Shown here: piece by piece, positions 237 through 31,934 of the stretch
Layout: each line of letters opens with the position of its first letter
Position numbering within the stretch: position 1 is the first letter of the stretch
NCBI GenBank assembly: GCA_003562815.1
Contig: PWTO01000276.1
Coordinates: 1 to 32,351, forward strand
Length of the DNA stretch: 32,351 nt
Reading direction: 5' to 3'
Source: Chromatiaceae bacterium
Lineage (GTDB): Bacteria; Pseudomonadota; Gammaproteobacteria; Chromatiales; Chromatiaceae
Program-made: the position numbers and the translations under genes
The notes under the pieces: model-generated
Told to the model about the DNA's origin: nothing
The model's database searches: none
What the model saw: the letters and a program-made list of their open reading frames with translations, nothing else

Positions 237-920
237 ATGACGACTGATCCCAAGCGCCTGGCAATGACGCTGCTCGGCCATCCGCCAGAATCGATGGCGT
301 TGATCGAGCAGGCCCTGACCCACCGCAGCGCTGGGCCGGTGAATAACGAGCGGCTCGAATTTCTGGGCGACGCCTTGCTCGGTTTCGTCATCGCCGAGGT
401 GCTGTTACAGCGCTTCCCCGGGGCCAGCGAAGGCGATCTGACCCGCCGCCGCGCGACCCTTGTCAATCGCGAGGCCCTCGCCAAGATCGCGCGCGCGCTC
501 AATCTCGGGGACTATCTGCGCCTGGATTCGGGCGCGTTGCGTTCCGGTGGCCATGCGCGCGATTCGGTGCTCTCGGATGCGCTGGAGGCACTGATTGGCG
601 CCATCTATCTGGATCAGGGCTTCGCGCGGGCGAAGCGGATGATCCTCGAGGTCTTCGCCGAGTCCTTGGTCGAGGTGGCCAATCAGGAGGCACGCAAGGA
701 TCCGAAGACCCAATTGCAGGAATGGCTGCAAGCGCGGCGGCGCGCCTTGCCTGAATACGAGGTGACTGACGTCACCGGAGAGCAGCATGCGCAATGCTTT
801 CGGGTACGCTGTCGCCTCCCCGACGATGGCCGTGAATGTCTCGGCGATGGCTCCAGCCGGCGCCGTGCCGAGCAGCAGTCGGCCGAGACCATGCTCGCCC
901 TGTTGAGCGAGGCCGATTGA
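237..920 (+). CDS. rnc: Ribonuclease III
   Basis: NERLEFLGDALLGFVIAEVL signature and a C-terminal dsRBD (DPKTQLQEWLQARRRALPEYEV). ATG at 237 preferred over the longer 186 start. Confidence 0.95.
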   Translation: MTTDPKRLAMTLLGHPPESMALIEQALTHRSAGPVNNERLEFLGDALLGFVIAEVLLQRFPGASEGDLTRRRATLVNREALAKIARALNLGDYLRLDSGALRSGGHARDSVLSDALEALIGAIYLDQGFARAKRMILEVFAESLVEVANQEARKDPKTQLQEWLQARRRALPEYEVTDVTGEQHAQCFRVRCRLPDDGRECLGDGSSRRRAEQQSAETMLALLSEAD

Positions 921-924
921 CCCT

Positions 925-1950
925 ATGAACCAGTCTCAGGACGATCAAGCAGCGGCCTGCGTCGCCGCCGCCAGTGCGCATCCCGGCGCCGATGCCGATG
1001 CCAACCCCAACGCTGGCCCCAACGCCGATCCTGGCAGCGGGCGCTGCGGCTATGTGGCGATCGTCGGCCGACCCAACGTCGGCAAGTCGACCCTGCTCAA
1101 CCGGCTGTTGGGGCAGAAACTGGCGATCACCTCGCACAAGCCGCAGACGACGCGCCACACCATCCTCGGGGTCTCGACCCTGGACGCAGGGCAGATCCTC
1201 TACGTCGATACACCAGGCCTGCATCGGCGCGGTGGCAATGCGCTCAACCGCTATCTGAATCGGGCCGCGCGCGCGATCCTGGCCGATGTCGATCTGGTGC
1301 TGCTGGTGGTCGAGGCGCTGCGCTTCACCGAGGAGGACGCGCTGGCGCTGACCGAGATCGTCAAAGCCGGCACGCCTACCCTGGTCGCCGTCAACAAGAC
1401 CGATCGCGTCGCCGACAAGACAGGCTTGCTACCCTTCCTGCAGTCGGTGTCGGAACGGCATGCGTTCGTCTCCATCGTGCCGGTCTCGGCGCTGAAGGGA
1501 CATCAGGTCGAGCGCCTGGAGGCGGAGATCCTGGCCGCGTTGCCGGCGGGCGAGCCGTTGTTCCCGCCCGATCAGCTCACCGATCGCTCGGAGCGCTTCC
1601 TCGCCGCCGAGCTGCTGCGCGAGCAGTTGATGCAGCGCTATGCTCAAGAGCTGCCCTATCGGACCACGGTCGAAATCGAGTCCTTCACCCTCGAGCAGAC
1701 CAAGGGGACGGATCGCGCCGAAGCACCCAGGGCACGCATCCATGCCGTGATCTGGGTGGAACGCGAGAGCCAGAAGGCGATTATCATTGGCCACCGTGGC
1801 GAGGCGCTGAAGGCGGCGGCGTCGCAGGCGCGCCTGGAGATGCAGAAGCTCTTCGGTCGGCGCGTGCATCTCGAGGTCTGGGTCAAGGTCAAGGACAGTT
1901 GGAGCAGCGACGAGGCGGCGCTCGCGAGCCTCGGTTACGGCGAATACTGA
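925..1950 (+). CDS. era: GTPase Era with low-complexity N-terminal extension
   Basis: GRPNVGKSTLLN (G1), DTPGLH (G3), NKTD (G4) and C-terminal KH domain (IIIGHRGEALKAAASQARLEMQKLF). Confidence 0.95.
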   Translation: MNQSQDDQAAACVAAASAHPGADADANPNAGPNADPGSGRCGYVAIVGRPNVGKSTLLNRLLGQKLAITSHKPQTTRHTILGVSTLDAGQILYVDTPGLHRRGGNALNRYLNRAARAILADVDLVLLVVEALRFTEEDALALTEIVKAGTPTLVAVNKTDRVADKTGLLPFLQSVSERHAFVSIVPVSALKGHQVERLEAEILAALPAGEPLFPPDQLTDRSERFLAAELLREQLMQRYAQELPYRTTVEIESFTLEQTKGTDRAEAPRARIHAVIWVERESQKAIIIGHRGEALKAAASQARLEMQKLFGRRVHLEVWVKVKDSWSSDEAALASLGYGEY

Positions 1951-1988
1951 GCGTCGCGCTCGGCGATGGTCGTCGGGTCGCCTACGCC

Positions 1989-2783
1989 ATGAGCGTGCTG
2001 GCACTCAAGCGCGGCTTTGTCCTGCACCGCCGCGATTATCGTAACAGCAGTCTACTGCTCGAGGTCTTCAGCGCAGAGACAGGTCGACTTGCCTGTCTCG
2101 CCAAGGGGGCGAAGGCGGCGCCCAAGGGGCGTGGCGCCTTGGCCTCGCTGCTGCAGCCCTTTCAGCCGCTCTGGCTGCATTGGGTGGGGCGCGGCGAGGT
2201 CAAGACCCTAACCCGTGCCGAGGCCGCCGGCGCTGCGATCGCGCTCAGCGGTGAGCGCCTCTACTGCGGCTTCTACCTGAACGAGCTGCTGATGCGCTTG
2301 CTTGCGCGCGACGATCCCCAGGAGCCGCTGTTCGTGTTCTATCAGCAGGCGTTGGTGGATCTGGCGACCGAGGCGGTGGACGCGGTGCTGCGGCGTTTCG
2401 AGCTGCGCCTGCTCGAAGAGCTTGGCTACGCGTTCGATCCACGCCGGGATCGCCACGGTACGCCGATCGATCCGCGTCGATGCTATGGTTACAGCCCCAA
2501 CGAGGGGCTGGAGCCGATGCCGGACGTGGATCTGGCCCCTTTGCTTGACCCGAGGCTTGATCCGAGGTTGGCGCCCACGCCAGAGGCTGCGGTTGCTGCC
2601 GACCCCAACCTCGCTCCAGTGGCGCTGGTCAGCGGCGCCACGTTGCAACGGTTGGCTGCGGGAGCCGCGTTGTCGCCGCGCGAGACCCGCGCAGCGCGCG
2701 ACCTGATGCGCGCCGCGCTCGCCCCCCATCTTGGGCCCAAGCCGTTGCGCAGCCGCGAACTGTTTCGCCGGCGATCAGTCTGA
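1989..2783 (+). CDS. recO: DNA repair protein RecO
   Basis: [42 protein letters not shown] is RecO N-terminal OB-fold-like; position between era and pdxJ is classic. Confidence 0.92.
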
Positions 2784-2832
2784 AGCCAGCTCGCCATCCG
2801 TCCGCATCGCTTTCTCAACCGCAGGAATCACC

Positions 2833-3600
2833 ATGTCAGAACCAACCGGGGCGCCGATCCGACTCGGCGTCAATATCGATCATATCGCCACCATTCGCGC
2901 CGCTCGCGGCACCCGTTACCCGGAGCCGATCCAGGCCGCGCTGGTCGCCGAGCAGGCCGGTGCCGATGCCATCACGCTGCATCTGCGCGAGGATCGGCGG
3001 CATATCCAGGATCGCGATGTGCATCTGCTGAAGGGCATTCTGCAGACGCGCATGAATCTGGAGATGGCGGCCACCCCGGAGATGGTCGAGATCGCTTGCG
3101 CCGTGCGGCCGAGCGACTGCTGCCTGGTGCCGGAGCGGCGCGAGGAGCTGACCACCGAGGGCGGACTCGATGTCGCTGGCCATATCGACATGCTCAAAGA
3201 GCAGACCGCGCGGCTCACCGACGCCGGCGTGCGCGTGTCGCTGTTCATCGACGCCGAGGCGGCGCAGCTGGAGGCCGCCGCCGAGATCGGCGCGCCGGTG
3301 GTCGAGATCCATACCGGCCGCTATGCCGACGCCCGCTCGCTGGCGGCGCGCACCGAGGAACTGCAGCGCATCGCCGAGGCGGTGGCGCGGGGACACGCGC
3401 TTGGCCTGCAGGTCAATGCCGGGCATGGGCTCGATTACCCGACTGTCGAGGCGATCGCGGCCTTGCCGGGCGTGCGTGAACTCAACATCGGTCATGCCAT
3501 CGTTGCGCGCGCGCTGTTCTCGGGGCTCGAGCGCGCGGTGGCAGAGATGAAACGTCTGATGGTGCAGGCCGCGCTCTTGGGTCAGCACGCGCGCACTTGA
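2833..3600 (+). CDS. pdxJ: Pyridoxine 5'-phosphate synthase
   Basis: [53 protein letters not shown] and HTGRYAD; conserved order recO-pdxJ. Confidence 0.96.
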
Positions 3601-3740
3601 GTCGCCTGGACGGTCTTGATATCGGTGTCCGACCCCCATGGTTTCGTCGCTGTCATCGAACCAGGGTGGAAAAGGAACGCCGTTTGCTTCATGTTCTGGG
3701 ACATCCTCCGAGACATCCCGCAACCCAAGGTTTTTCGATC

Positions 3741-5336
3741 ATGACTACCACCGCAGAGTCGGCAACCCCGAGGCGCCCGGTCGTCCTGGTCATCCTCGAT
3801 GGCTTCGGCATCAACCCAAGTAAGCTCCACAATGCCATCGCCCAGGCGAGGACGCCACGGCTCGATGAATACTTCTTCCGGTATCCCTTCACGCAACTGA
3901 ACGCCTCAGGCAGTGGCGTGGGCCTGCCGACCGGACAGATGGGCAATTCCGAGGTCGGGCACATGACGCTCGGCAGCGGTAGCCTGCTGCGCCAAGACCT
4001 GGTGCTGATCGACGATGCGATCGCCGAGGGCCGTTTCTTCGAGAACGCGGCCTTGCTCGCGGCGGTCAACGCGGCCAAGGCCAAGGACCGACCTTTGCAG
4101 CTGCTCGGGCTGGTCTCCGAGGGCGGCGTACATAGCCACGTGCGCCACCTGCTGGCCCTGATCGAGCTGTGCCGGCGCGACGGCGTGACCCCATTGGTGC
4201 ACATGGTGACCGATGGGCGGGATACACCGCCGAAGTCGGTGCTCAACGGCCTCGGCGAGATCGAGGAGGCGCTCGACGGGGCGGGCGGGCGCATCGTCAC
4301 CGTCAGCGGGCGCTACTACGCGATGGATCGGGATCGGCGTTTCGACCGCACCGAACGTGCCTGGCGGGCCATCGCGCTTGGCAAGGGACGCAGCGCCCGA
4401 AGCGCACGCGCGGCGATCGATGCCGCCTATGCCGCAGGCGAGGGCGATGAATTCATCCATCCCAGCGTCATCGGCGATTGGCGGGGGCTCGAGGCCGACG
4501 ATCCAATGGTGCTGTTCAACTTCCGTAAGGATCGGCCCCGGCAGATCGCCGCCGCGCTCGCGCTCGACACCTTCGATGGCTTCGATCGGGGCCAGGCGCC
4601 GCGCGCTGCACTGACCTGCATGATGGTCTACGACAAGCGCTTTGGGCTCGCGCATGCGTTCGATCCCGAGGTGCCGGCGATCACCCTGAATCAGGTCGTC
4701 AGCGCCCAAGGGATCGAGCAGTTTCACTGCGCCGAGACCGAGAAGTATGCCCATGTCACCTTCTTCTTCAACGGTGGGCGCGAGGAGCCGGTCGCTGGCG
4801 AGGTGCATCGATTGATTCCGTCCCCGATGGTCAAGACCTATGACTTGAAGCCAGAGATGAGCGCGGTGCAGGTGGCCGATGCCGTCGTCGAGGCGATCGA
4901 GAGCGGGCGCTACGGCTTCATCGTCGTCAACTTCGCCAATGGCGATATGGTCGGCCATACCGGGTATATGGAGGCCGTGGTGCGGGCGGTCGAGGTGGTG
5001 GATCGGCAGGCCGGTCGCGTGCTGGACGCGGCCACGGCCAATGGGTATTCGGCGCTGCTGACGGCCGATCATGGCAATTGCGACATGATGCTGGACCCCG
5101 AGACGGACGCACCGCACACCCAGCATACGACCAATCCGGTGCCGTTGCTGGTGGTGGACAAGGAGCGTTGGGTGCTGCGACCGAGCGGAACCCTGGCCGA
5201 TGTCGCCCCAACGGTGCTTGAGCTGATGGGGCTGCCGGCCGCAGAGGCGATGTCCGGGCGCTCGCTGCTGTTCGAGGCCCTGGCGCCGCAGCCGAATGTC
5301 GCGCACGACCGGCTCGGGCTTGCGCGCACGGGCTAA
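3741..5336 (+). CDS. gpmI: 2,3-bisphosphoglycerate-independent phosphoglycerate mutase
   Basis: VVLVILDGFGIN, TGQMGNSEVGHMTLGSG, VNFANGDMVGHTG, LTADHGNCDMM motifs. Confidence 0.95.
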   Translation: MTTTAESATPRRPVVLVILDGFGINPSKLHNAIAQARTPRLDEYFFRYPFTQLNASGSGVGLPTGQMGNSEVGHMTLGSGSLLRQDLVLIDDAIAEGRFFENAALLAAVNAAKAKDRPLQLLGLVSEGGVHSHVRHLLALIELCRRDGVTPLVHMVTDGRDTPPKSVLNGLGEIEEALDGAGGRIVTVSGRYYAMDRDRRFDRTERAWRAIALGKGRSARSARAAIDAAYAAGEGDEFIHPSVIGDWRGLEADDPMVLFNFRKDRPRQIAAALALDTFDGFDRGQAPRAALTCMMVYDKRFGLAHAFDPEVPAITLNQVVSAQGIEQFHCAETEKYAHVTFFFNGGREEPVAGEVHRLIPSPMVKTYDLKPEMSAVQVADAVVEAIESGRYGFIVVNFANGDMVGHTGYMEAVVRAVEVVDRQAGRVLDAATANGYSALLTADHGNCDMMLDPETDAPHTQHTTNPVPLLVVDKERWVLRPSGTLADVAPTVLELMGLPAAEAMSGRSLLFEALAPQPNVAHDRLGLARTG

Positions 5337-5482
5337 GTTGCTTTCAATCGGCCCGGCCCTGGCTCCTGGCTGATCGGCGCCGCTCCTGCCCCAGTGTAGG
5401 GCGTCTGCCCGCCTGTATGCGCCAGGATGATGCAGATCGGCCGGATGCTGTTGTCGTTGATCTGGAGACCCTGAGACCGTCC

Positions 5483-6730
5483 ATGCCTTCGAAGACACTC
5501 ACCTTCGTATTCGCCGCCGAGCGCGGTACGCCCGCGCCACTGACCGAACATCGCTGTAAGGCCGCAGTGCCGGTGGCCGGCAAGTATCGCGTGATCGATT
5601 TCACGCTGGCCAACTGTCTGCACTCGGGGCTGCGCCAAGTGCTGGTGCTGACACAGTACAAATCGCACTCATTACACAAGCACCTGCGCGACGGCTGGTC
5701 ACTGTTCAACGCCGAGCTGGGCGAGTTCATCACCGCCGTACCGCCGCAGATGCGCTATCACAGCGATTGGTATCGCAATGCAATGGACGCGTTGCGTCAG
5801 AACCGCTACCTGATCGAGCGCAGCCCGTCGGATAGCGTGTTGCTGCTCGATGGCGGTCTGGTCTATCGCATGGACTATGCGGAGCTGATCCGCTTTCACC
5901 GCGAGCAGGGCGGGGGCATTAGCTGCCCGCTGCGCCAGGCCGGGCCCGGCACCGCCAGCGGTGGGATGGCGGTGGAGGTCGATGCCGAGGAGCGGATCAT
6001 CGCCATGCGGCCACCGCCGGAGGCAGGCGACACCTACCGCTCGACGATGGGCGTGGTCCTGATCGACAAGACCTTGCTGCTCGAACGGCTCGAGACCCTA
6101 GCCGAAGCCGGTGAGTCTGGAATGGAAGCGGGGATGGCAGCAGGCATGGAATCGAACGTGGATCTCGTGACCCAGCTCCTGACACCGTTTCTCGATGGCC
6201 GTGCGTTCACGCCGAGCCCGCCGGTCGCCTACGGCTTTGGCGGCGAGCGCGGGCGCGTCAGTCAGGATCGGTATTGGAGCGATCTCGGGTCCACCGACGC
6301 CTACTTTCGCGCCAACATGGATCTGCTCAAGGCCGACTCGCCCTTGGATCTCTACCAGGCCGACTGGCATATCCTGACCTATCAGGGGCAGTATCCGCCG
6401 GCGCGCACCGTGCCTGGACCCAATTCGGGGAACGAGGGCATCTTCGTCAACTCGATGCTGGCGGCCGGAACCGTGATCCGTGGCGGCGGCGTCAGCCATT
6501 CGGTGCTCTATCCGCGGGTGCAGGTCGAGGACAGCGCGATCGTCGACGAGGCGATTCTGTTCGAGGGTGTGCGAGTGGGGGCCAATGCGCGCATCAGGCG
6601 CTGTATTTGCGACAAGGAGGTGGTGATCCCGGCGGGAGCCGTGATCGGCGAGGATCGCCGCGCCGATGCCGAGCGCTTCGCAGTCTCCGACGAGGGCATC
6701 GTGGTGATCCGCAAGGGGCAGTCGCTCTGA
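5483..6730 (+). CDS. ADP-glucose pyrophosphorylase (GlgC)-like protein, probably catalytically impaired
   Basis: GlgC-like over full length (KAAVPVAGKYRVIDFTLANC, SHSLHKHLRDGWSLFNAELGEF, C-terminal beta-helix region with VIGEDRRADAERFAVSDEGIVVI) but key catalytic motifs are altered. Confidence 0.85.
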   Translation: MPSKTLTFVFAAERGTPAPLTEHRCKAAVPVAGKYRVIDFTLANCLHSGLRQVLVLTQYKSHSLHKHLRDGWSLFNAELGEFITAVPPQMRYHSDWYRNAMDALRQNRYLIERSPSDSVLLLDGGLVYRMDYAELIRFHREQGGGISCPLRQAGPGTASGGMAVEVDAEERIIAMRPPPEAGDTYRSTMGVVLIDKTLLLERLETLAEAGESGMEAGMAAGMESNVDLVTQLLTPFLDGRAFTPSPPVAYGFGGERGRVSQDRYWSDLGSTDAYFRANMDLLKADSPLDLYQADWHILTYQGQYPPARTVPGPNSGNEGIFVNSMLAAGTVIRGGGVSHSVLYPRVQVEDSAIVDEAILFEGVRVGANARIRRCICDKEVVIPAGAVIGEDRRADAERFAVSDEGIVVIRKGQSL

Positions 6731-26024: not shown

Positions 26025-27263
26025 CTAGCGGGCATCATCCTGCCCGAGCTGGGCCTTGAGCAGCTCGCCAAGGGTGCCGACGCCGGCATCCTCGTCCTTG
26101 TCCCGCGAGCGACCGCGTTCCTCCGAGCTTGGCGACGAGCGAGACTGCGTGGTACCGGCCTCGGCCGCTTGCAGACGCTCGGGCGCGAGCGAAAGACCGA
26201 TGCGGCGGCGCTCGGTATCCACCTGCACGACCACCGCATCGACCTGCTGATCGACCTGCACCACGTCCTTGGGATGCTCGACGCGGTGTCCCGCGCCGAG
26301 TTCGCTGACGTGCACCAGGCCGGTGAGCCCGGGCTCGAGTTCGACGAAGGCGCCGAAGGGTTCGAGGCGCTCGATGCGCCCGCGCACCTGGGTGCCGGGT
26401 CGGTAGCGCTGCGCGGCGTCGGACCAGGGGCTCTTTGCCAGGGCGCGCATCGAGAGCGCGATCCGCTCCGGGCGCTTGGGGTTGTTGGTCTGCTCGATGC
26501 GCAGGACCGCGACCTCGATCTCCTGACCGATGCTCAACACCTCTTCCGGATGCCGCACGCGACCGAGCGCGAGTTCGCTGATGTGGATCATGCCCTCGAC
26601 GCCGCCGAGATCGATGAAGGCGCCGAATTCTTGTAGTCCAACCACGGTGCCCGGCAGTACGGCGCCGGGCTCGAGCTTGGCGCGCAGCTCAGCGGCGCGC
26701 TCGGCCTGCGCTTCCTCAAGGATGGCGCGACGCGACACCACGAGATTCAGCCGTCGCCCGCCCTCGAATTTGGTGATGCGGAACGAGGCGCGCTCGCCAA
26801 CCAGGCTGGAGAGATCCTCGATGAAGCGCAGATCGGCCTGCGAGGCCGGGCAGAAGGCGCGCTGGCCGGCGATCTGCACTTCGAGACCGCCCTTGGTGGT
26901 GCCGGTGATCTGGCCCTCGACCGGAGTGCCGGCCTGGAACGCGGCCTGGAGCTGATCGGCGCCGTGGGCGTGGCGACCGTGGCGACTGCCAAGCACCAGG
27001 GTGCCGGTGTCGGGATCGACACCGGTGACCGCCGCCTCGATCGGGTCGCCGACGGCTTTGTTCACCTGACCATCGGCGTCGCGCAGGTTGCTGAGTTCCA
27101 GGGTGGCCTCGGCCTTGCCACCGATATCGACGAACGCATGCTCTTCGCCGATCTCGATGATAGTGCCTTGAACCCGGTCACCCACCTTGGGGCGTGCGGC
27201 CAGCGCCTGCTCGGTTTTTTCCAGCTCCTTGAGCAGGGCCTCGAAATCGTTGTCGTCGGTCAT
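26025..27263 (-). CDS. Multi-S1-domain RNA-binding protein (RpsA-like)
   Basis: About four S1 repeats, e.g. PGTVVGLQEFGAFIDLGGVEGMIHISEL and GRIERLEPFGAFVELEPGLTGLVHVSEL; charged Ser/Arg/Asp tail. Confidence 0.87.
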   Translation of the reverse strand: MTDDNDFEALLKELEKTEQALAARPKVGDRVQGTIIEIGEEHAFVDIGGKAEATLELSNLRDADGQVNKAVGDPIEAAVTGVDPDTGTLVLGSRHGRHAHGADQLQAAFQAGTPVEGQITGTTKGGLEVQIAGQRAFCPASQADLRFIEDLSSLVGERASFRITKFEGGRRLNLVVSRRAILEEAQAERAAELRAKLEPGAVLPGTVVGLQEFGAFIDLGGVEGMIHISELALGRVRHPEEVLSIGQEIEVAVLRIEQTNNPKRPERIALSMRALAKSPWSDAAQRYRPGTQVRGRIERLEPFGAFVELEPGLTGLVHVSELGAGHRVEHPKDVVQVDQQVDAVVVQVDTERRRIGLSLAPERLQAAEAGTTQSRSSPSSEERGRSRDKDEDAGVGTLGELLKAQLGQDDAR

Positions 27264-27547: not shown

Positions 27548-28516
27548 ATGACCCGCTACGATGTCTTCAATGGCGATGCCGACGGCCTCTGTGCGCTCCA
27601 GCAGCTCCATTTGAGCGAGCCGGACGCCGAGGACGCGGTCTTGATCACCGGCACCAAGCGGGATATCGCGCTCGTCCAGCAGGTGCCAGCGGTCGCGGGC
27701 GATCGGGTGACGGTGCTCGATGTGTCGCTGGACAAGAACCGTGGCCCCTTGCTCGCGCTGCTGGAGCGTGGCGTCAGTGTCCGCTATGTCGATCATCATT
27801 ATCCTGGCGAGATCCCGTCGCATCCGAACCTCAAGGCGCAGATCGATACCACCGCCGATCGGGGCACCAGTCTGTTGGTCGATGAGCTGCTGGCGGGTCG
27901 GCAGCGGGCCTGGGCCGTGGTCGGCACCTTTGGCGATAACTTCGATCGTTCTGCGCGACGCGCGGCCGAGCCGCTCGGATTGGCGCCAGAGGAGCTCGAT
28001 CTATTGCGCGAACTCGGCATCCTGCTCAACTACAACGGCTATGGCGCCACGCTGGCCGATCTGCATGTTCCGCCCGCGACCCTGTTCGCGCGCCTCCGCC
28101 CTTATGCCGATCCGCTCGCGTTCGCGCGCTGCGACGAGACTTTTGCCATGCTACGTGCCGGCTATGCCGACGATATGGCGCGCGCCCGTGCACTGACCCC
28201 GGAGCATCGCAGCGCGACCCATCTATCGATGCTGCTGCCGGCGGCGGCCTGGGCACGTCGGGTCGGCGGTGTTTATGCCAATGCCCTGGCCCAGCAGGCG
28301 CCGAAGCGGGCGCATGCGCTGCTGACGCGGCGCGAACAAGGCGGTTTCCTGGTCAGCGTGCGCGCGCCGCTCGCGCATCCGCAAGGGGCCGACGCGCTTT
28401 GCCGACAGTTCGAGACGGGGGGGGGGCGTCAGGCTGCGGCGGGCATCAACCAGTTGTCCGAGCGCGACTATCCGCGCTTCATCGACGCCTTTCTCGCAGC
28501 CTTTCGCGAGCCCTAA
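27548..28516 (+). CDS. DHH/DHHA1 family phosphoesterase
   Basis: DVFNGDADGLCALQQL (motif I), VLDVSLD, RYVDHHYPGE (DHH), GTFGDN, C-terminal GGGRQAAAGIN (DHHA1-like). Confidence 0.88.
   Translation: MTRYDVFNGDADGLCALQQLHLSEPDAEDAVLITGTKRDIALVQQVPAVAGDRVTVLDVSLDKNRGPLLALLERGVSVRYVDHHYPGEIPSHPNLKAQIDTTADRGTSLLVDELLAGRQRAWAVVGTFGDNFDRSARRAAEPLGLAPEELDLLRELGILLNYNGYGATLADLHVPPATLFARLRPYADPLAFARCDETFAMLRAGYADDMARARALTPEHRSATHLSMLLPAAAWARRVGGVYANALAQQAPKRAHALLTRREQGGFLVSVRAPLAHPQGADALCRQFETGGGRQAAAGINQLSERDYPRFIDAFLAAFREP
28417..28426 (+). repeat. G10 homopolymer inside DHH phosphoesterase gene
   Basis: gagacGGGGGGGGGGcgtcag; encodes the Gly-rich DHHA1 motif. Confidence 0.9.
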
Positions 28517-28564
28517 ACCCTAAACTCTGACATCCTGTGAGACTGGCGGCGGCTGAGGTTTGGT

Positions 28565-29509
28565 ATGCGGCATCTGGTTTTCGTCTATGGCACCCTGTTG
28601 CGCGGCGGGGTCAACCACGGCCTGCTCGCGGCCGCCGAGTGGGTCGGCGAGCACCGTACCGAACCACGCTTTACCCTGCTGCAATTGGGGGCCTATCCGG
28701 GGCTGATCAGCGGTGGCCACACGGCGGTTTCGGGCGAACTGTATCGGGTCGATAATGCCGGGCTCAAGGCACTCGATCGGCTTGAGGACTATCCACGGCT
28801 CTATGATCGGCGCCTGATTGCGACCCGTTTCGGTCCGGCTTGGGCCTATCTCTATCGCGGCTCGGTGCGTGATCGGCGACCGATCCCGAGCGGCGATTGG
28901 CGCACGCTCTCGCAGGCCGCCACCCCCCTGCGCGCGGCCGCGATTCGCGGTCGGCGCAATTCCAAGAACCCGGGTCGCCGGCAGCAAATGCGGTCCCGAC
29001 TCATGGCGACGGAGACATCGATGACTACCGACACCCCTGCTTCGCAGGCGACCGAGGAGGGCCGCTTTACCATCCAGCTCGAGCAGCGCGAGGGCTTCGA
29101 GATCAACGTCGCGTTCGACTGGAAACGCGCTGCCGATCTGCTGATGGACGAGCCGCCGCCACTGGGCGAGACCAATGGCCCCAATGCCTCGCGGCTGCTC
29201 GCGGCGGCGGTCGGCAACTGTCTCTCGGCGAGCCTGCTCTACTGCGTCGGCAAGGAAGAGCCGCCGGCGCGGAGCCTGCGCACCGACGTGACCTGTGTGA
29301 TGGTGCGCAATGAGAAGAAACGCTTGCGCATCGGACGCATGGACGTGCGCATGATCCTGGCGCCGAGCCTGATCGACGCCAAGCGTTTCGAGCGCTGCAA
29401 GACCCTGTTCGAGGATTTCTGCGTGGTCTCGGCCAGCGTCCGACAGGGGATTCCGATGCGCGTCTCGGTGCTCGACGAGGCGGGTAACCTGCTGCATCAA
29501 AGCGACTGA
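28565..29509 (+). CDS. Continuous frame: gamma-glutamylcyclotransferase-like (AIG2/GGCT) domain followed by OsmC-family domain
   Basis: N-terminal FVYGTLLRGGVNHGLL...GELYRV...LDRLEDYP (GGCT) and C-terminal AAAVGNCLSASLLYC...CVVSASVRQGIPMRVSV (OsmC). Internal ATG at 29021 has GGAG 6 nt upstream. Confidence 0.82.
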   Translation: MRHLVFVYGTLLRGGVNHGLLAAAEWVGEHRTEPRFTLLQLGAYPGLISGGHTAVSGELYRVDNAGLKALDRLEDYPRLYDRRLIATRFGPAWAYLYRGSVRDRRPIPSGDWRTLSQAATPLRAAAIRGRRNSKNPGRRQQMRSRLMATETSMTTDTPASQATEEGRFTIQLEQREGFEINVAFDWKRAADLLMDEPPPLGETNGPNASRLLAAAVGNCLSASLLYCVGKEEPPARSLRTDVTCVMVRNEKKRLRIGRMDVRMILAPSLIDAKRFERCKTLFEDFCVVSASVRQGIPMRVSVLDEAGNLLHQSD

Positions 29510-29549
29510 AGTCGCCGTTGTCCAGCCCGCGTTTCACTAGGAGAGCGGC

Positions 29550-31325
29550 ATGATCGGTTTACGACGGCAGCGTCGGGTCTTGTTGCTGGGCCAAGGGGTG
29601 GTTGCCGAGGCCTGCGAGCGGGCGTTGAACGCGGGCGCGCAACGCGCGTTGCCGAGGCTGGACCCAGAGGCGGTCGATGCCCGGCGGCTACGACAGGCCG
29701 ATATCCTGATCCTCGCCGACGCGACGGACCCGCGCGCGTTGTTGGCCGACCTCTCGCCGCGCCTCGCCCAACTCGAACGGCGACGACCCTTGCGGGTGCT
29801 GCTGCTCGATGACACCGCGCGCCTAGATGCCGCGCCGCTGGCCGAGACGGCGGCACAGCAGCCGTCCTGGGTGCGCCTTGAGTCAGTGCCGATCCCGCCC
29901 CGCGCGGCACGCCGATTGCTCGCGCGCTGGCCGCTGCATTGGGGGGCCGACCCGCGCTTTGGACAGCGCGTTCATCTGCTGCTGCTGGGCGAGAGCCGGT
30001 TCGCCGAGGCGCTGCTGGTGCATGCGCTGCGCATCAGCGGTTATGGCGATCCGCGCGCCTGCTTGACGCTGCTCGGCGACAATCCTGCGGCCTGGGAGGA
30101 GCAGTTCACTCGCGCCTATCCCCAAGCGCATCGGATTGCCGAACTGCGTTTTCAGTCGCTGCAAGCCCCTGACTTGGCGGCAGCGCCACCGGTCACCATG
30201 GCGGTGGTCTGCACCACGCCGACCGCAGTGGCTCTGCGTCAGGCGCGAACGCTGATCAGTGAGCTTGCCGAGGCGCAGCGTTGCTCGCCGCCGGTCCTGG
30301 TCGAGGTCGGCGATCTGCGCGCCGATGGCGAGCTAGACGACTGGGATGGCCAACTGATCCCCATCGAGCAGCGGCAATTGGCGCTGGATCGCGCCGTGCT
30401 CCTTGAGGGCCGGGGTGACGAGCTGGCGCAGGTGATCCATGACCATTACCGCGATACCACCGAGGCGCAAGGGCGCGATCCCTCGGTGGCGCCGGCGGGG
30501 CAACCGTGGCCGCTGCTGGCCGCGTCCTATCGGGATGCGAATCGCCATCAAGCCGACCATCTCTGGGCGAAGTTGGCGGTCACCGATTGCCGCGCCGTGC
30601 CCGAGGATCAGGTGGAATCGTTCGCCTTCGCGCCCATCGAGGTCGAGCGGCTCGCGGTCATCGAGCACGCGCGTTGGGCCGCCGACCGGTGGCTCGATGG
30701 CTGGTCGTATGCGCCGACGCGCGATAATGCACGCAAGCATCATCCGCAACTGGTGCCTTATCAGCAGCTCTCGGGGCCGATGAAAGATCTGGATCGCTTT
30801 GCGGTGCGCCTGCTGCCGACCTTGCTCGCGCGCTCCGGGCTCGGGGTACTGCGCATGCTGGTGATTGGACTGGTGTCGGCCGCGCCGGCGGCGCGACAAT
30901 CGGCGCCGCCACCCGCAGGGTTGGATCGGTGGTTTCGACAGGCGCTGAGGCGCTTGGTCGCGCGTTATCCGGATCGCGCGCTGGTGGTGGGCGCCGCGCT
31001 CGACGATCCCAGCGCGCGGCGGTTTGCCGAGCTGGCGAGCGCGCAGTTCGGCGCCAGCGTCTTCGTCTTACTGCAGCAGCCATTGCCGCTGCTGCTGGAC
31101 GGCCTCGAGGCGCGGGCACGCCGTCAGGCGCTGGCCTTATTGACCAGGGCCGAGCGGCGCATTGCGCTCCCGGAGCCGGGCGCCCTCGCGGGTTGGTTGG
31201 ACGCACGCGCCGAGATCCTGGTCGATCTCGGCGCCGATGCGCGCCCGACCGAGGCCGCGCTGCCGGAGCGCAAATGGCTGCGGATCGATCCCACGCATGG
31301 GCTGCGCTGGACCTTCGAGTATTAG
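29550..31325 (+). CDS. Rossmann/TrkA-N-like + RyR domain + possible SLOG-like C-terminal domain protein
   Basis: RVLLLGQGVVAEACERAL and HLLLLGESRFAEALLVHAL Rossmann loops; RyR signature IEHARWAADRWLDGWSYAPTRDNARKHHPQLVPYQQLSGPMKDLDR; C-terminal ALVVGAALDDPSARRFAELASAQFGASVFVLL. Confidence 0.8.
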   Translation: MIGLRRQRRVLLLGQGVVAEACERALNAGAQRALPRLDPEAVDARRLRQADILILADATDPRALLADLSPRLAQLERRRPLRVLLLDDTARLDAAPLAETAAQQPSWVRLESVPIPPRAARRLLARWPLHWGADPRFGQRVHLLLLGESRFAEALLVHALRISGYGDPRACLTLLGDNPAAWEEQFTRAYPQAHRIAELRFQSLQAPDLAAAPPVTMAVVCTTPTAVALRQARTLISELAEAQRCSPPVLVEVGDLRADGELDDWDGQLIPIEQRQLALDRAVLLEGRGDELAQVIHDHYRDTTEAQGRDPSVAPAGQPWPLLAASYRDANRHQADHLWAKLAVTDCRAVPEDQVESFAFAPIEVERLAVIEHARWAADRWLDGWSYAPTRDNARKHHPQLVPYQQLSGPMKDLDRFAVRLLPTLLARSGLGVLRMLVIGLVSAAPAARQSAPPPAGLDRWFRQALRRLVARYPDRALVVGAALDDPSARRFAELASAQFGASVFVLLQQPLPLLLDGLEARARRQALALLTRAERRIALPEPGALAGWLDARAEILVDLGADARPTEAALPERKWLRIDPTHGLRWTFEY

Positions 31326-31395: not shown

Positions 31396-31416
31396 GCCGG
31401 CAGTTTGACCGCCGGC
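31396..31416. terminator. Possible hairpin between convergent genes
   Basis: GCCGGC-agtttgacc-GCCGGC between the RyR gene stop and the DUF1249 gene stop. Confidence 0.3.
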
Positions 31417-31934
31417 TAGGGACTGGTAAGCAGCTCGCGTTGTCCGCCAGCGGCGCTCAGGCTGGCGCTGACGGGAAAGCCGTGCCCCTCGCGCAGGCAG
31501 TAGCCAAGCCACTTGGAGACGAACAGGTTGGCGCGCCACTTCGCCGCCAGCGCGGGATGCTCGTAGTGGCTTAGGATCGGCAGCACGGTTTGCCGCAGGC
31601 TCAGCACCTCGACCTGCTCGGCGTCGTGATAGGCACGCAAGAGCGCATCCGGCTCCGATGGCGGCTGCCCACCAGTATGCCCCTGAGGGGTGTCGGCGTG
31701 CAGCAGGTGGGTCAGGCGTAGCGTGCTGGTATAGCGCGACTGCTCAACCACCACCAATAACAGCTCGGCGCCCCCGTCCGGCTTCGAGCGCAAGGGGCCG
31801 CGCAGCCGTGGGAGCGCCGGCGCGAGCCGCATCAGGGCGCCATAATTCTCCTCGCACAGCGCCATCAGGCCGCCGACATCGGGCGCCGCCGCGAGCAGGT
31901 CGAGGCGAGAGAAAACCAACGAGGGTGCCTGCAT
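31416..31934 (-). CDS. DUF1249 family protein (YqiB-like)
   Basis: GGLMALCEENYGALMRLAP, VVEQSRYTSTLRL, LRAYHDAEQVEVLS, NLFVSKWLGYCLREGHGF resemble E. coli YqiB (MRLCEMNFSQLRRLLP, VVESTRYTTLVTI, VRLYHDAMVAEV, FLADWLRYCLAHG; recalled from memory). Confidence 0.85.
   Translation of the reverse strand: MQAPSLVFSRLDLLAAAPDVGGLMALCEENYGALMRLAPALPRLRGPLRSKPDGGAELLLVVVEQSRYTSTLRLTHLLHADTPQGHTGGQPPSEPDALLRAYHDAEQVEVLSLRQTVLPILSHYEHPALAAKWRANLFVSKWLGYCLREGHGFPVSASLSAAGGQRELLTSP

Follow-up and report, generated by a model that had tools for sequence, protein, structure and literature searches.

The RyR-domain protein encoded in a 32,351-nucleotide stretch of DNA from a Chromatiaceae bacterium (assembly GCA_003562815.1, contig PWTO01000276.1, analysed as a whole and referred to here as the window) is inherited together with an MCE pump, an ATP-binding cassette (ABC) transporter encoded elsewhere in the genome. 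On balance, the protein is best regarded as a soluble, adenine-nucleotide-sensing regulator of this dedicated MCE-type transporter in purple sulfur bacteria. A functional link between the two is very likely, and the mechanism suggested by the sequences, in which a nucleotide would gate the transporter, has a little less than an even chance of being right. Gene content, gene neighbourhoods, an identical distribution, joint gain and loss, and invariant ligand residues form the observed basis of this reading. Within the window, the RyR gene (open reading frame 3, ORF3) is the last of three collinear + strand genes, following a gene for a DHH/DHHA1-type phosphoesterase (ORF1) and a merged frame for a gamma-glutamyl cyclotransferase (GGCT) and an OsmC protein (ORF2), with gaps of 48 base pairs (bp) between ORF1 and ORF2 and 40 bp between ORF2 and ORF3. 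A preliminary description of this DNA had noted the arrangement, which the coordinates confirm, and had read it as a DHH-GGCT/OsmC-RyR circuit, which is not supported; the three-gene cluster is not a self-contained unit.

In a family sample of 117 species genomes, which includes the draft assembly that holds the window (G000), 34 genomes yielded a RyR protein, 28 of them at E<1e-100, the threshold adopted for its presence. The genomes with the MCE protein, scored at E<1e-60, are precisely these 28 (Fisher p 1e-27, without correction for the tree), and a clear gap in E value separates them from other matches, the next best for MCE being 4e-17. A gene in the 28 genomes was counted as a neighbour of RyR if it shared its strand and lay no more than 2.5 kilobases (kb) away; by this measure the MCE gene lies near the RyR gene in 13. 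When the DHH proteins of 51 genomes are arranged in a tree, RyR must have appeared or disappeared 10 times along it, with at least seven of these changes forced by supported branches. Within all seven independent pairs of genomes that differ in RyR, MCE differs in the same direction (p 0.0156); OsmC follows RyR in about two of these pairs, the LSDAT protein described below in about two, and phototrophy in about one. Joint absence of RyR and MCE is exemplified by G080 versus G108, G102 versus G071, and G074 and G104 versus G027. Given the identical distribution, the gains or losses on at least seven independent occasions, and an association that holds at any chromosomal distance, the MCE transporter is therefore a concrete partner for RyR. 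The preliminary description had looked to conserved co-occurrence of the three window genes; the neighbourhood check found DHH apart from RyR in most genomes, with the MCE transporter, outside the window, following RyR perfectly instead.

Phototrophy, scored by reaction-centre genes (PF00124), was considered as the sole cause of the shared distribution and rejected. Phototrophs make up 41 of the 117 genomes and include 26 of the 28 RyR genomes, the remaining two assemblies being incomplete; in another four phototrophs the RyR protein is of a diverged type. However, 11 phototrophs have neither gene, and this, together with how seldom phototrophy follows RyR among the pairs, makes it an insufficient explanation.

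At most of the loci that lie apart from RyR, the partner is a compact MlaE-MlaF-MCE-lipoprotein operon, often accompanied by genes for an uncharacterised protein of 460 amino acids and a DMT-type transporter. Orthologues of the operon match the Pfam families MlaE (5e-38), ABC_tran (1.9e-23), MlaD (2.6e-6) and ABC_trans_aux (1.6e-13). As in the MCE/Mla phospholipid transporters (MlaFEDB and the E. coli MCE proteins), there is an MlaE permease, an MlaF-type ATPase and an MlaD-type MCE protein, along with a PqiC-type (PF03886) lipoprotein. The operon differs from canonical Mla in being co-inherited with RyR and, in many genomes, with LSDAT, in an MCE protein that reaches 40 bits against the MlaD equivalog (cut-off 135), and in the apparent lack of an MlaB (STAS) gene, for which no profile search was made. 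In the MCE family, the precedent for a transported substrate is lipid (PMC7790496, PMC5561183). A diverged RyR subfamily (G029, G077, G106 and G005; ~34-39% identity) has its own diverged MlaE-MlaF-MCE-lipoprotein operon directly downstream. The 460-residue protein occurs in 18 of the 117 genomes, all of which also have a RyR protein; it carries an invariant motif, NCDP-x-T-x-DRES-x-QA-x-KQFHLHL, and has no match among Pfam families or solved structures in the PDB. Second, diverged RyR genes (68 bits) are found in genus g29, at G029:C1:1588216-1588440 and G106:C1:3836582-3836806.

ORF3 matches the RyR family PF02026 (E 1.4e-11, 44.9 bits, cut-off 27.4), as do all 26 members of its alignment, and hydropathy prediction gives no membrane helix. 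Four residues, H373, W376, H398 and D415, are invariant in the 26 homologues, the diverged subfamily included, and their spacing (0, +3, +25, +42) is that of H75, W78, H100 and D117 in the phage protein RyDEP, which bind and cleave 2'/3' cyclic ADP-ribose (cADPR; PMC13232231). The repeats of RyR1, when aligned with these sequences, retain the His and Trp throughout and carry either His or Asn at the third position. Nucleotide binding by RyR domains has been demonstrated for phage RyDEP and animal RyR3, and six of eight tested RyDEP homologues from phages bind cADPR isomers; except for RyDEP, those tested did not cleave them, and for this reason binding is a safer prediction than cleavage for ORF3 (PMC13232231). 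The earlier suggestion that the RyR protein is a nucleotide sensor thus stands as probable, on the strength of the profile match, the invariant residues and the RyDEP precedent. Genes of the TIR_2 family, a possible source of a cADPR-type ligand, show no association with RyR (14 of 28 RyR genomes, 49 of 89 others) and are absent from G000, so ATP, ADP, ADP-ribose (ADPR) or nicotinamide adenine dinucleotide (NAD) is at least as likely a ligand as a TIR product. ORF3 has in common with RyDEP and animal RyR the domain itself and its three ligand positions (His, Trp, His), plus an Asp spaced as in RyDEP. It differs in being a soluble cellular protein with a single RyR repeat and extra N- and C-terminal regions, and its linkage is to an MCE transporter rather than to either NAD synthesis or a calcium channel. 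Among the domain calls of the preliminary description, those of the DHH motifs, GGACT, OsmC and RyR held, and those of SLOG and TrkA in ORF3 did not, neither SLOG nor TrkA_N profiles matching ORF3 or its 25 relatives at E<=0.5; a Rossmann-like N-terminal half can only be surmised.

The surroundings of the RyR gene were assessed by fetching the flanks of RyR, DHH and GGCT/OsmC homologues and clustering their genes. The fuller order in relatives runs DJ-1/PfpI, GGCT, OsmC, LSDAT_prok, RyR, MlaE, MlaF-type ATPase, MCE/MlaD-type protein and PF03886 lipoprotein, followed in several genomes by an opposite-strand STAND-WD40 gene. Its stable core is OsmC-RyR. LSDAT_prok (PF18171), a SLOG domain of the TRPM type, scores above cut-off in 16 family genomes, all of which carry a RyR protein (of the diverged subfamily in two), and lies at the RyR locus in 14 of them; in G050, the LSDAT-RyR locus is split across two contig ends. 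The SLOG element of the preliminary description therefore belongs to this neighbourhood in relatives and not to the window itself. Twenty further genomes have the same order, OsmC-(LSDAT)-RyR, nearly all of them having OsmC/GGCT and RyR, many having LSDAT, and four having Mla/MCE directly after RyR; DHH adjoins the cluster in only three more members of the window's genus. Burroughs and co-workers are said to have proposed bacterial nucleotide-sensing SLOG/LSDAT and RyR systems from comparative genomics in 2015. An LSDAT_prok gene at the RyR locus is a likeness to such systems, from which ORF3 differs by its lack of membrane helices and of a recognisable TrkA_N domain, and by having an MCE transporter as partner instead of a patatin or channel. 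Proteins of ~1600 residues resembling DUF4062 and STAND-WD40 proteins flank the RyR-Mla locus in L117, L122, L124, L125 and L091.

Several points weigh against a regulatory role of RyR on the pump. Shared distribution argues for functional linkage, not for an action of RyR on the transporter, and the protein could instead have the substrate pathway as its target, or the 460-residue protein and DMT transporter of the operon. The two genes are apart in 15 of the 28 genomes, on another contig in 12 (the window's genome included), and adjacency of OsmC to RyR (19 of 28) is stronger than that of MCE. The tree used for joint loss is that of a single gene, the DHH protein itself. Finally, the N-terminal half and C-terminal third of ORF3 match no family, and a single-sequence AlphaFold model of the protein was unusable (predicted local distance difference test score, pLDDT, 37.6).

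The other two proteins of the cluster have identities of their own. ORF1 has the motif set of the DHH/DHHA1 phosphoesterases of the NrnA/RecJ superfamily (DADG 10-13, VLDVS 56-60, DHH 82-84, GDN 129-131, GGG 291-293) and a DHHA1-like end; it departs from them in having no match to the Pfam DHH profile and one to DHHA1 that is weak and under cut-off (E 0.068, 14.1 bits), and it adjoins a RyR gene in few lineages only. ORF2 matches GGACT, the gamma-glutamyl cyclotransferase family (E 1e-26, 94.3 bits, cut-off 22.8), with a YGTL motif, and OsmC (E 1.4e-8, 35.5 bits, cut-off 27.5), with two Cys in NCL (218) and DFC (284) motifs. Homologues of GGCT/OsmC occur in 68 of the 117 genomes. Among the relatives examined, GGCT and OsmC are separate frames in most and merged in frame only in G000 and G067; an internal ATG in ORF2 with GGAG upstream suggests that OsmC could start on its own. 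A bifunctional GGCT-OsmC fusion was accordingly rejected as a feature of the system. What persists of the preliminary pairing with RyR is OsmC as a conserved neighbour, the merged frame being local to those two genomes.

Against this background, the operon originally envisaged, in which DHH would break down the nucleotide that RyR senses and GGCT/OsmC would provide thiol/peroxide outputs, is very improbable. Three same-strand genes with short gaps are what one would point to in its favour, along with the presence of DHH in all 28 RyR genomes and an adjacency kept in the window's genus (G000, G067, G777, G779, G780) and two members of genus g39. Yet DHH lies near RyR in just 4 of the 28, and 36 of the 64 family genomes with DHH homologues are without a canonical RyR protein. 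In most genomes, its conserved home is among ndk, rlmN, pilF, rodZ and hisS, so a ligand-degrading DHH partner is largely refuted by the neighbourhood data; the OsmC record in the pair test likewise fails to bear out GGCT/OsmC as an output. An unlikely but more serious candidate is a redox or carbonyl-stress unit, with RyR sensing NAD(P)/ADP-ribose-type metabolites together with OsmC, GGCT and DJ-1, and the MCE operon as a co-regulated arm for envelope repair. OsmC, mostly with GGCT and often with DJ-1, is upstream of RyR in the 19 genomes mentioned and in most of the 20 further ones, and a gamma-glutamyl enzyme is plausible because purple sulfur bacteria use glutathione amide. However, DJ-1 occurs with GGCT and/or OsmC but without RyR in G102, G033, G074 and G015, five RyR genomes have no tallied OsmC match, and OsmC does not follow the gains and losses of RyR. 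The preferred reading places GGCT and OsmC, together with DJ-1, in a small thiol/peroxide cluster of their own, next to RyR.

Two remaining readings would change the role of the RyR protein. Conflict systems do contain RyR and SLOG domains, as the phage protein RyDEP illustrates (PMC13232231), STAND-WD40 genes adjoin several RyR loci, and larger RyR proteins elsewhere adjoin patatin-like and SLOG-like frames. From these, one might picture an anti-phage system, with RyR and LSDAT as detectors of an alarm nucleotide and the membrane proteins as effector, but we consider this improbable: PADLOC models match none of the three proteins, a conserved RyR domain is spread over 63 of 212 genomes within a single family, TIR_2 is no commoner with RyR, and what MCE transporters are known for is moving lipids, not killing. 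Slightly less probable still is that ORF3 is a RyDEP-like glycosidase that hydrolyses an ADP-ribose-type metabolite and senses nothing. Counterparts of the catalytic His and Asp (H373 and D415) stand at the RyDEP spacing, although the profile alignment is ambiguous by about two residues as to whether D413 or D415 corresponds to D117. The failure of other tested homologues to cleave cADPR isomers, which most of them bound, also tells against an enzyme, and a regulator would account better for the strict linkage to a transporter.

Few other Pseudomonadota have a RyR domain (8 of 399 genomes), and no Mla/MCE genes lie beside the sparse RyR genes there. Several of these proteins are ~720-840 residues long, some with N-terminal hydrophobic stretches. 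At L200 (7051-12427), L201 (3327-8742) and L203 (3833-9260), RyR proteins of 710-800 residues lie beside frames that by eye resemble patatin and SLOG proteins, an arrangement different from that of the window.

Homologues of ORF1, ORF2 and ORF3 in relatives are ~45-90% identical, so these are real genes and not chance frames. Neither strand shows a promoter-like site between positions 27200 and 31600; there are two weak + strand terminator-like matches, both within ORFs and close in number to those of shuffled sequence. The coordinates of the genes, their boundaries and the partner operon are collected in Table 1. In G099, of the window's genus, ~17 kb parts DHH-GGCT from OsmC-RyR (contig C6, 9470-30493; L112, L149), and the outer flanks, S1 and DUF1249-Trx, are kept.

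Table 1. Features of the window and of the partner operon in the same genome (G000)
Feature	Location	Coordinates	Strand	Details and basis
S1-domain protein, divergent upstream boundary	Window	26025..27263	-	ORF call, profile match
ORF1, DHH/DHHA1-type phosphoesterase	Window	27548..28516	+	322 amino acids; ORF call, motifs, homologues
ORF2, GGACT+OsmC merged	Window	28565..29509	+	314 amino acids; Pfam matches
GGACT domain of ORF2	Window	28577..28903	+	residues 5-113; YGTL motif at residue 8
OsmC part of ORF2	Window	29021..29509	+	possible internal start ATG 29021; Pfam OsmC residues 201-300
ORF3, RyR-domain protein	Window	29550..31325	+	591 amino acids; Pfam match, phylogenetic profile
RyR domain of ORF3	Window	30642..30809	+	residues 365-420; H373, W376, H398, D415
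DUF1249 protein, convergent downstream boundary	Window	31416..31934	-	ORF call, profile match
MlaE	Contig C319 (L172)	~895-1632		same operon order as orthologues
MlaF	Contig C319 (L172)	1656-2381		partner operon
MCE protein	Contig C319 (L172)	2409-3524		partner operon
Lipoprotein	Contig C319 (L172)	3509-4183		partner operon
Uncharacterised 460-residue protein	Contig C319 (L172)	4187-5572		partner operon
DMT transporter	Contig C319 (L172)	5575-6477		partner operon

For the RyR protein as regulator of the MCE transporter, we infer nucleotide binding, the direction of control and the substrate, and the following scheme is proposed. In the cytosol, the RyR domain would bind an adenine nucleotide, be it ATP/ADP or a ligand of the ADP-ribose type, and the protein, in the place of canonical MlaB, would switch the MlaE-MlaF-MCE-lipoprotein transporter on or off. 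In this way, RyR would probably couple the transport of a lipid or other hydrophobic substrate to the energy or redox state of the cell. The LSDAT protein, the usual neighbour where RyR is directly upstream of the transporter, may be a second sensor; that in purple sulfur bacteria an MCE lipid transporter is gated by a joint adenine-nucleotide/ADP-ribose sensor made up of RyR and LSDAT is a speculative extension, to which we give perhaps one chance in a few. The RyR-MCE (+ LSDAT) unit of these bacteria appears undescribed in the literature searched, which yielded no paper joining RyR and MCE, and an earlier mention in comparative work on such domains is possible.

To our knowledge, no function has been established for bacterial proteins with a RyR domain, phage proteins aside. 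The animal relatives of the RyR and LSDAT proteins belong to ryanodine and TRPM calcium channels, and the control of MCE transporters is poorly understood. If the proposal is true, sensor domains of the RyR and TRPM types would be tied to lipid transport, and MCE transporters would gain a nucleotide-binding regulator.

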